64,000 bases of DNA from Alkalihalobacillus sp. CinArs1 (GTDB lineage: Bacteria > Bacillota > Bacilli > Bacillales > Guptibacillaceae). The number at the start of each line of letters is the position of its first letter. Position 1 is the first letter of the stretch. Below, piece after piece: positions 14,771 through 17,856 of this stretch. Both the position numbers and the translations under genes were made by a program. The notes beneath the pieces are model-generated. The model did not search any database. It was given only the letters and a program-made list of their open reading frames with translations, and was not told where the DNA came from. The stretch spans positions 1,240,001-1,304,000 of the forward strand of contig NZ_CANDOB010000002.1 of the NCBI RefSeq assembly GCF_947387515.1. Direction: 5' to 3'.

Positions 14771-15733
14771 ATGGATATGATGCAGATTCTACAAATCGTC
14801 ATCCCTGCAGCTATCTTTTCAGCCGCTCCCCTGATCTTCACCGCATTAGGTGGTGTATTCAGTGAACGGTCAGGTGTTGTTAACATCGGTTTGGAAGGCT
14901 TAATGCTAATGGGGGCATTTACAGGAGCATTATTCACATACTTAGGGGAACAGTGGGGAATGGGTGCAGCTTCACCTTGGTTCTCACTAATCGTCGCAAT
15001 CATTATCGGAGCGCTGTTCTCACTAATCCATGCGGTTGCAAGTATTTCGTTACGAGCGGACCAAGTCGTAAGTGGTGTAGCACTAAACTTTCTAGCAGCA
15101 GGACTTGCGATCTTTTTAGTGAAGAAGATCTTTGATGCAGGTCAGACGCCAATTATTCAAGAACGTATCTATAAAACGAATGTACCATTCTTAAGTGACA
15201 TTCCTTTTATCGGACCACTATTTTTCTCAAATGCTTACTATACTTCTTACATCGCGATTGCTCTTGCAGTTCTCGTTTGGTGGGTGATCTATAAGACGCC
15301 GTTCGGTTTGCGCTTGCGTTCGGTTGGGGAACATCCGATGGCTGCAGACACGATGGGAATCAACGTAACAAAAATGCGCTATGTTGCCGTAATGCTAAGT
15401 GGTGGGTTTGCGGGGCTAGGTGGAGCTGTTTATGCAACATCCATCGCAGGTAATTTCAGTCACGCAACGATTTCTGGCCAAGGATTCATGGCACTTGCAG
15501 CGATGATATTCGGTAAGTGGCATCCCCTTGGTGCAATGGGAGCAGCTTTATTCTTCGGACTAGCTCAGTCACTGAGTATTACAGGACAACAAATTCCTGG
15601 GCTAAAAGAAATTCCTGAAGTTTACCTCCTCATTTCACCGTATGTCTTAACAATCCTCGCACTAGCAGGGCTCGTTGGACGAGCAGATGCACCAAAAGCA
15701 ATCGGTCAACCTTATGAAAAAGGAAAACGTTAG
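14771..15733 (+). CDS. nupQ: Nucleoside ABC transporter permease, second subunit
   Basis: 320 aa BPD_transp_2 permease with FSERSGVVNIGLEGLMLMGAF, the motif parallel to that in nupP, and VVSGVALNFLAAGL. The ATG abuts the nupP stop with no gap. It is the last gene of the operon and is followed by a strong terminator. It completes the binding protein / ATPase / two-permease set of a BMP-type nucleoside importer. Confidence 0.9.
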   Translation: MDMMQILQIVIPAAIFSAAPLIFTALGGVFSERSGVVNIGLEGLMLMGAFTGALFTYLGEQWGMGAASPWFSLIVAIIIGALFSLIHAVASISLRADQVVSGVALNFLAAGLAIFLVKKIFDAGQTPIIQERIYKTNVPFLSDIPFIGPLFFSNAYYTSYIAIALAVLVWWVIYKTPFGLRLRSVGEHPMAADTMGINVTKMRYVAVMLSGGFAGLGGAVYATSIAGNFSHATISGQGFMALAAMIFGKWHPLGAMGAALFFGLAQSLSITGQQIPGLKEIPEVYLLISPYVLTILALAGLVGRADAPKAIGQPYEKGKR

Positions 15734-15742
15734 GTGAAAGTA

Positions 15743-15776
15743 AGAACCCTCTACATTTGAAGAGGGTTCTTTTTGT
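15743..15776 (+). terminator. Rho-independent terminator after nupQ
   Basis: AGAACCCTCT / AGAGGGTTCT with an eight-base loop and a T-run. Confidence 0.93.
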
Positions 15777-15800
15777 TTGGCAGCTAGTAAACTGATTAGA

Positions 15801-15904
15801 AATATTAGTTTAGACAATAAAAAATGATTTTGGCTAATAAAACGCGATTTTGGACAATAAAAATAGATTTTAGATAATAAAAGAAGAATTTGGACAATAA
15901 CGTG
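15801..15904. repeat. Tandem repeat with 20-bp period (five copies)
   Basis: The core T(A/G)G(A/C)(C/T)AATAA recurs at 15811, 15831, 15851, 15871 and 15891, exactly 20 bp apart, with an ATTTT lead-in and a more variable 5-bp segment. Two of the five cores are TGGACAATAA. The spacing is close to two helical turns. It lies between the nupQ terminator and the larger repeat array and encodes no protein I would support. Confidence 0.8.
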
Positions 15905-15978
15905 TTGAGTAGGAGTGGATTTGAGCATCTTGAGTAGTAAAATGTGCTCTTTTTAAAGGTTAACAGAGGTTTTCTAAT

Positions 15979-16482
15979 CTAAACGGTCACTTCCGCTTTT
16001 AATGTCTAGCTGCGGTGGCAGAAACTGCGATATTTCGCTCTTTCACTTGAACACAAAAAGCGTGTTCCAGTTCAAGAGCTCCAATATCTCCGTTTCTAAA
16101 CGGTCACTTCCGCTTTTAATGTCCAGCTGCGACTCGCAGAAACTACGATATTTCACTCTTTCAACAGAACACAAAAGGCGTGTTCTATTTCAAGAGTTCC
16201 AATATCTCCGTTTCTAAACGCTCGTCTTCGCTTTTCGTGTGTCCAGCTGCAGTGACCAGGTCCTCGATCGCTTCACATTTCAATCCGAACACAAAAACCG
16301 TGTTCATATTGAAATGCTCCAGCGCTTGTCGGACCTAAACGGTCACTTCCGCTTTTAATGTCCAGCTGCGGTGGGCAGAAACTGCGATATTTCGCTCTTT
16401 CACTTGAACACAAAAAGCGTGTTCCAGTTCAAGAGCTCCAATATCTCCGTTTCTAAACACCCACCTTCGCTTTTCAAGTGTT
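15979..16482. repeat. Four tandem copies of a ~118-bp hairpin-forming repeat
   Basis: Units start at CTAAACGGTCACTTCCGC-like sequence at 15979, 16096, 16214 and 16335, with a partial fifth start at 16453. Each unit has a conserved linker (CCGCTTTT..TCCAGCTGC) and a 77-79 bp imperfect hairpin: 16020-16097, 16138-16215, 16258-16336 and 16377-16454. A GAACAC..GTGTTC stem tip is present in all four. Copies 1 and 4 are almost identical. Copy 3 differs through most of the stem yet both arms still pair. Similar linkers are, from memory, frequent in Bacillaceae intergenic regions. Confidence 0.88.
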
Positions 16483-16578
16483 AATTACTTACACATTGAC
16501 ACATACTATGGTATAAAGGGAATAAGAATTGGTTTCCTGTGTTGGAAAACGATGGAGAGATGAAAAGGAGTGAGTTGT

Positions 16579-17856
16579 ATGGCAATTATCCCTCATGAGA
16601 AGAGCTCATGCGGCGGTTTAACGCTACATAAGATTCAGACTGAGAAGTATAAGACGACCACTGTGGTCATGCAGTTTAAGTCTCGGTTAACCGAAGATAC
16701 TGTGACGAAGCGTGCGCTTCTGCCATATGTGCTTCAAAGTGGAACAGAAAATTATCCATCATCGAAGGCTCTTCGTACGGAGCTTGAAAAGCTTTATGGT
16801 GCGACGTTAGGTGTGGATTTAGCGAAGAAAGGCGACTTTCATATCATGACGTTTAGAATGGATTTTGCCAATGAGAAGTTCCTATCAGAGGATAAACCAC
16901 TTCTAGAGAAAGCGCTTGGTTTGTTTGCAGAAGTGGTGATGAACCCTAAGAAAGTCGATGGGGCTTTTGATTCTTCAATCGTTGATAAAGAAAAACGCAC
17001 ACTTAAGCAGCGTATTCAATCGATTTACGATGATAAGATGAGATATTCCAATATGAGACTAACGGAGGAAATGTTCCCGAATGAGGCTTTTGGCCTGCAT
17101 GTGTATGGAGTAAAAGACCAAATCGATGGCATCGATGCGAACAACTTATTCGAGTATTACGAAAAAGTTTGTAACGAAGACGAAGTCGACCTCTATATCG
17201 TAGGAGATTTAGACGAAATTTCGATCAAGGATTTAGTAACGGATCTATTTCCTTTTAAAGAAAGAACGCAAGCTTCAACGGACATTACTGAAAAAGCGTC
17301 GTTAGAAGTGGAAGAAAAAGAAGTGAAAGAAGAGCAGGAGATTAAACAAGGTAAGCTTCATATGGGCTTTCGTTCTGGAATTAGCTACGCGGATGATGCT
17401 TATTATGCGCTTCAGGTGTTTAACGGAATGTTCGGAGGCTTTTCACATTCAAAACTCTTTAGAAACGTTCGGGAAAAAGAGAGTCTTGCTTACTATGCGG
17501 CATCAAGATATGAAAGTCATAAAGGTTTGATCATCGTCATGTCTGGTATCGAGTTTAAGAACTATAATAAAACAGTCGACATCATCAAAGAACAGTTAAC
17601 TGCGATGCAGAATGGCGATTTTAACGATGGTGAGATGAAGCAAACGAAAACAATGATTCGAAATCAGCTCCTTGAAACGGTAGACGACGCAAAAGGAATG
17701 GTAGAACTCCTTTATCATGGTGTGGTTTCTCAGAAGCTTCGATCGCTAGAAGATTGGCTGGACGGAATCGATGCGGTCACTGAAGAAGATATTAAAAAGG
17801 TAGCAGCTCAAGTGAAGCTCGACACCGTTTATTTCTTAAAAGGGGAGGAGGCATAA
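16579..17856 (+). CDS. ymfF: Non-catalytic M16 family protein YmfF (EF-P modification-associated)
   Basis: M16-fold protein of 425 aa whose N-terminal domain lacks the HxxEH zinc motif: the equivalent helix reads KRALLPYVLQSGTENYP. The C-terminal domain keeps the R..Y pair in NVREKESLAYYAASRYES. This pattern fits the non-catalytic partner of a two-subunit M16 peptidase; ymfH next door has the zinc site. Both genes are linked in B. subtilis to 5-aminopentanol modification of elongation factor P. ATG 16579 after AAAAGGAG is preferred over an in-frame GTG nine bases upstream, which overlaps the SD. Confidence 0.88.
   Translation: MAIIPHEKSSCGGLTLHKIQTEKYKTTTVVMQFKSRLTEDTVTKRALLPYVLQSGTENYPSSKALRTELEKLYGATLGVDLAKKGDFHIMTFRMDFANEKFLSEDKPLLEKALGLFAEVVMNPKKVDGAFDSSIVDKEKRTLKQRIQSIYDDKMRYSNMRLTEEMFPNEAFGLHVYGVKDQIDGIDANNLFEYYEKVCNEDEVDLYIVGDLDEISIKDLVTDLFPFKERTQASTDITEKASLEVEEKEVKEEQEIKQGKLHMGFRSGISYADDAYYALQVFNGMFGGFSHSKLFRNVREKESLAYYAASRYESHKGLIIVMSGIEFKNYNKTVDIIKEQLTAMQNGDFNDGEMKQTKTMIRNQLLETVDDAKGMVELLYHGVVSQKLRSLEDWLDGIDAVTEEDIKKVAAQVKLDTVYFLKGEEA

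Follow-up and report, generated by a model that had tools for sequence, protein, structure and literature searches.

The BOX and SPRITE elements of Streptococcus pneumoniae are described as small, non-coding and interspersed, with the potential to form stem-loops; BOX contains tandem boxB modules in variable number, and SPRITE is terminator-like (PMC3049150). For the Bacillus cereus group, two sources present bcr1-bcr18 as small, mostly chromosomal repeats with features of mobile elements, list Bcr1 as having a conserved structure, and give the first BCR as confined to this group and carrying a TTTAT motif (PMC6542083, PMC2267715). One of them also records Bhal-1, a stem-loop family of 74 bp and 36 copies in a Bacillus relative (PMC2267715). 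REPs measure 20-40 bp (PMC3733652).

The hairpin family analysed here shares with BOX and SPRITE the character of small interspersed stem-loop repeats. Compared by description, it differs from them in its host group and in being built of whole-hairpin modules, with arrays that are constant only at the 3' side. While BOX follows the order boxA-boxB(n)-boxC, the arrays considered here repeat whole modules of stem types A, B and C in an order that varies (the types by reading, BOX by its description only). With the bcr repeats it has in common that it is small, mostly chromosomal and of mobile-element character. In contrast to bcr1, which is described as confined to the B. cereus group and is likewise set apart by description, the present family occurs in 84 of the 116 genera sampled from the order. 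Bhal-1 could be related to part of the family. Like the REP/BIME sequences of the RAYT system, the modules are intergenic, high-copy palindromes of imperfect hairpin DNA, but they span 117 model positions as opposed to 20-40 bp, and none of 30 Y1 loci has a convincing module. REPs are further marked by a GTAG or CGTC tag at one end and by palindromes that flank a Y1 transposase gene. We found no description of the family in the open-access literature searched, although an earlier one in subscription papers is possible.

The array and its hairpin modules

The window is a stretch of 64,000 nucleotides from Alkalihalobacillus sp. CinArs1. A sequence-only reading of it had described a four-copy repeat of ~118 bp, and this is recovered by Tandem Repeats Finder at 15978-16458 (period 118, 4.1 copies, score 547). 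The array consists of four tandem modules of 115-117 nt each (16004-16475), all on the plus strand and each forming one long hairpin: M1 (16004-16118), M2 (16121-16236) and M4 (16360-16475) of type A, and M3 (16241-16357) of type B. The CGCTTTTC end of M4 is the 3' end of the array. Directly upstream of M1, the same strand carries TCTAAACGGTCACTTCCGCTTTTAA at 15978-16002, by reading the 3'-end remnant of a 5'-truncated module, a pattern that recurs at other arrays.

The array is bounded upstream by the terminator of a gene (ORF 14771-15733) and downstream by ORF 16570-17856. The terminator, an intrinsic one on the plus strand at 15742-15771, has an 11-pair stem followed by TTTGTTT. By its sequence, the upstream ORF looks like the permease of a nucleoside-type ABC transporter, and the downstream product resembles the M16-like peptidase YmfF. 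A scan of named genomes with the latter returned eight loci, which bear the labels Pseudalkalibacillus, Alkalihalobacillus or Bacillus sp. and reach up to 93% identity; on this basis, we assign the window to Pseudalkalibacillus. Immediately 5' of the array, an A/T-rich repeat with a 20-nt period occupies 15809-15908. In 16 of 70 arrays, the 350 nt on the upstream side contain similar units of short period, compared with none of 1000 random windows, the motifs having been picked post hoc.

The details of the stems are as first described. Closing stems AGAAAC/GTTTCT are present in M1, M2 and M4, whereas M3 carries AGGTCC/GGACCT together with a mid-stem exchanged for ATTTCAAT/ATTGAAAT and a retained tip GAACAC/GTGTTC. 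The outer stems pair as well (GTGACC/GGTCAC in M3), as does AGC/GCT at the base, and the hairpin is thereby longer than first described. M1 and M4 have an identical 83-nt core and differ at 8 of 117 aligned columns, all in the outer parts, and this core supports the proposed recent duplication or gene conversion. M1 also looks recombinant, since it shares its 3' outer arm with M3. Folded as plus-strand RNA, each module lies 3.9-5.6 standard deviations below its dinucleotide shuffles (0/200 as low), two minus-strand folds reach -4.3 and -3.7 relative to shuffles, and the whole array gives z = -11.2 (0/100 shuffles as low).

A common structure was drawn from an alignment of 52 modules, composed of 50 of 53 non-redundant modules out of 120 found by pattern, plus M1 and M3 of the window; L046:2787, L073:1646 and L081:1594 were omitted. 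From the base upward, it comprises AGC/GCT, a 7-pair outer stem, an AAAC bulge on the 3' side, a 6-pair stem, an asymmetric loop, a 4-pair stem and a conserved unpaired TTC opposite TCCA. Above these, a long variable stem leads up to GAACAC/GTGTTC and is capped by an A-rich loop (AAARRNC). The ends of the family are 5' GTCYAGC ... GCTTTTC 3', and the covariance model has 117 positions. The stretch earlier taken for a linker resembling a Bacillaceae repeat does belong to a widespread family, but it is the 3' end of one hairpin joined to the 5' start of the next. By reading, stem types A, B and C follow one another in varying order among arrays, and several copies hold a second module nested at one shared internal position.

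Standard pairs fill 92.3% of the paired cells in the alignment, and 27 of the 37 pairs have changed on both sides, in 375 cells. For covariation, the alignment scores 0.495, whereas shuffled alignments score 0.166 ± 0.008 (none of 500 as high; slid controls at most 0.127), where the shuffles ignore relatedness and the structure was drawn from the same sequences. Two pairs are doubtful: of 52 cells each, 24 are unpaired at columns 36-78 and 28 at columns 47-67. These values bear out the proposal of selection for the hairpin and not for its sequence, to which we would add templating as another way to the same pattern.

Range of the family and its occupied and empty sites

Further copies, anticipated by the sequence-only reading, are abundant in the organism's own genome and in its relatives. 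The genome itself yields 38 BLAST matches at E ≤ 1, and with the covariance model 46 matches at E ≤ 0.001 and at least 48 at E ≤ 0.1, the latter from 150 scored among 1748 candidates. With the same model, all 14 genomes of the genus carry the family with 46-101 matches each, as do 15 of 15 genomes of the bacterial family, whose one other genus has 3 matches. Across the order, 214 of 299 sampled genomes carry it, with 12 candidates scored per genome, so that per-genome match counts are lower bounds. In a sample of the class, the family is present in 24 of 200 genomes, 12 of them outside the order and 10 of these 12 in one family. One other, copy-rich genus has it in 13 of 13 genomes, with 3 to 141 matches.

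Carriage by plasmids or phages was considered and rejected: two queries gave no match in 72,556 plasmid records or 50,697 phage records (distant-mode BLAST, E ≤ 1e-3 and 1e-6), a search in which queries this short may miss weak relatives. At two loci, L098 (~103-217) and L131 (~1501-1617), modules lie by eye between the apparent 23S end and the 5S rRNA gene.

Orthologous sites differ in their content of modules. At the ymfF site, seven of nine loci (the window and eight relatives) are occupied, with differing module sets and, by reading, a reshuffled module order; two are empty, and both empty alleles may be deletions. At a second site, named mutS from reading of the gene's sequence, two of eight genomes are without modules, two hold only a 3'-end remnant, two hold one module (degenerate in one of them), one holds two and one holds three.

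In the other genus, a site adjacent to the trigger factor gene is empty in 6 of 18 loci examined (30 found). The empty sequence is nearly identical in these six loci, whose flanking gene is 83-93% identical to the query, and this fits an ancestral empty state. Another site of this genus is empty in 9 of 17 loci examined (19 found), and it includes hairpin-deleted copies in L218, L220 and L222, with a similar one in L219 that has extra sequence. In the three mini copies, the entire hairpin is removed at its base and the two ends remain. Occupied and empty sites have diverged from each other, and they resolve neither a clean target duplication nor an exact junction. At L132 (~1501-1615), a module appears inserted in another repeat (CCCGCGGAAAG...), with a possible clean junction. 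This host repeat is presumably of a widespread Bacillaceae type.

Terminators, array ends and the proposed spread of the modules

The position behind a terminator seen in the window is frequent in the family. Among Pseudalkalibacillus arrays, 46 of 70 have a same-strand terminator within 160 nt upstream, as have 42 of 75 elements in the other genus but only 19 of 300 random positions. A terminator that faces the array from downstream is found at 2/70 arrays, 4/75 elements and 17/300 random positions. Opposite-strand terminator-like sites occur upstream in 23/70 and 29/75, and same-strand ones downstream in 12/70 and 15/75. The simple terminator finder returned none upstream of 24/70 arrays and 33/75 elements. 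Since the random control positions are mostly coding, we give more weight to the difference between the upstream and downstream sides. Gene orientation was scored for 69 arrays, with the upstream gene co-oriented in 55 and the downstream gene in 39.

The two ends of the arrays behave differently. The 3' end falls at model position 115-117 in all 70 arrays (at 117 in 64), and a 5'-end remnant follows the last module in none of them. Of 194 internal modules, 192 begin at the first or second position. At the 5' side, 60 of 70 arrays start truncated, 36 with a long 5'-truncated module and 24 with a short 3'-end remnant, recognised by a loose pattern that allowed 2 mismatches; the remaining 10 start with neither and begin at position 2-13. 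The 70 arrays derive from strong matches, were deduplicated by their 3' junction and omit those near a locus end; orthologous sites are included, so that they are not independent. Simple symmetrical erosion is disfavoured by the truncation of 60/70 at the 5' side against 0/70 at the 3' side. The idea that protection of a downstream promoter keeps the 3' end constant was rejected as well, as the 3' ends are equally constant where the downstream gene is opposed.

In the other genus, three leader types, their patterns chosen after seeing them, precede 22, 6 and 13 of the 75 elements, and 34 have other leaders. MITEs are marked by terminal inverted repeats and a target duplication; with regard to the former, some leaders here (AGATAAGAAAG) are by eye complementary to CTTTTCTTATCT on the 3' side. 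The third type, of ~58 nt (L270, L279, L289, L298, L301, L303, L305, L308, L309, L310, L312, L314 and L329), contains TGTGGATAA in 8 of 13 copies and near-matches in others, and the palindrome ACTACATGTAGT in two. TGTGGATAA resembles a DnaA box.

With moderate confidence, we interpret the modules as small non-autonomous mobile DNA hairpin elements that settle behind terminators and build arrays by means of their own terminator-like end. An enzyme acting in trans would recognise the hairpin as single-stranded DNA and insert it next to a hairpin-plus-T-run target, that is, an intrinsic terminator. The element's own end, a hairpin plus CGCTTTTC, would recreate this target, leading to head-to-tail arrays that grow at their 3' side. 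Recombination at the conserved loops may then reshuffle the modules, while older modules on the 5' side would be lost. One-ended insertion by itself does not account for the full-length internal modules. A host function is not required by this interpretation, although insulation between terminator and promoter is possible.

Such a host function could instead be the primary one, if the hairpins were maintained as back-up terminators or insulators and spread only by recombination between resident arrays. The position between a terminator and the next gene would suit this explanation, as would the reshuffled modules at the ymfF site of relatives and the 83-nt core shared within the array. The only terminator-like site in window positions 15600-16650, however, is that of the upstream gene, and the gene downstream of the arrays is opposed nearly as often as it is co-oriented (30 vs 39 of 69). 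The empty sites and the more than 100 matches in some genomes also speak against it, and we consider it improbable that host maintenance explains the family.

A further alternative is movement of a REP-like palindrome by resident Y1 transposases of the RAYT type. Y1_Tnp (PF01797) is matched in 11 of 11 sampled Pseudalkalibacillus genomes, and over the order it shows a weak association with the family (170/214 vs 49/85, odds ratio 2.84, p 2.5e-4, uncorrected for phylogeny). Yet none of 30 Y1 loci, from 43 places in 15 genomes, has a convincing module within ~1.5 kb (one match reached E 0.5), and genome G098 combines 105 module matches with no Y1 match at E ≤ 1e-5. Two loci were checked for palindromes, and one of them (L334) is flanked by different ones, of GGGACAGGT type; the Y1 transposase gene there is RAYT-like by reading and these palindromes are its own. 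A resident Y1 enzyme thus seems an unlikely agent.

Pairing in DNA or in RNA

A structured RNA selected for its fold, either a cis-regulatory element or the precursor of a small RNA, might be expected from the strong covariation, the conserved loops and the highly stable folds. The sequence-only reading had left open whether the hairpin matters as RNA or as DNA, and the composition of the pairs narrows this in favour of DNA, as G-T pairs are rare and show no excess over A-C. Over the 31 pairs with at least 75% Watson-Crick cells, 141 distinct modules of Pseudalkalibacillus contain 4262 Watson-Crick, 17 G-T, 22 A-C and 64 other cells; over 35 pairs, 104 distinct modules of other families contain 3341, 21, 45 and 124, respectively. 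For comparison, 27 tRNAs from the same DNA contain 542 Watson-Crick and 50 G-T pairs (8.4%); their bracketed pairs held no A-C or other cells, and hence offer no comparison for those classes. The G-T share of the module stems, 0.4-0.6%, is about 14- to 22-fold below that of the tRNA stems.

Comparison of nearest-neighbour modules (at most 20 differences) gives a similar picture. Within the genus, one-sided changes lead to 13 G-T, 25 A-C and 50 other pairs, next to 79 two-sided Watson-Crick changes; elsewhere, the numbers are 10, 38 and 40, next to 34. The alignments were fitted to the model, and any bias from this would favour standard pairs, G-T among them. If a plus-strand RNA fold were being kept, G-T would be tolerated above A-C, which is not the case in the modules, and DNA is therefore favoured. 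It is likelier that the compensation reflects pairing of DNA, or a DNA process that changes both arms together.

A minus-strand RNA is ruled out less clearly. In the other families, A-C cells exceed G-T (45 vs 21, p 0.004), although one doubtful pair accounts for 14 of the 45; such an excess, if real, would represent G-U wobble on the minus strand. Rfam returned no match at gathering score in the window, and a permissive search of four arrays gave a best E of 0.32, with all hits below gathering. Together with the scarcity of G-T pairs, the placement behind terminators and the empty sites, these results leave an RNA origin of the conservation with little probability.

Group IIC introns prefer sites just after terminator hairpins, but in the window no Rfam family reaches its gathering score. 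Least probable is a retroelement copied by target-primed reverse transcription. It would explain the constant 3' end, the 5' truncation and the preference for terminators, the last being shared with group IIC introns. Against it, as against such introns, a search with PF00078 at E ≤ 1e-5 gave no reverse transcriptase match in 10 of the 11 Pseudalkalibacillus genomes sampled (G008 has a match). Across 299 genomes, the enzyme also shows no association with the family (odds ratio 0.79, p 0.37), and the internal modules are of full length.

We return to non-autonomous DNA hairpins that would target terminators, for which no mobilising enzyme was found among the reverse transcriptase and Y1_Tnp candidates tested. 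It is possible, although we would sooner expect otherwise, that they form a new class of mobile hairpin that uses the terminator both as target and as model to mimic, tiles head to tail, moves as folded single-stranded DNA with the help of either an enzyme or the replication machinery, and has spread between chromosomes across a large part of the Bacillales.

Hairpin repeats of this kind could be mistaken for regulatory RNA, and the pair statistics offer a simple test that tells DNA-level from RNA-level compensation. The family may be among the commonest non-coding repeats of Bacillus relatives. Terminator-directed, self-targeting insertion, if true, would tie the ends of transcription to genome change in these bacteria and would point to a new recombination activity.
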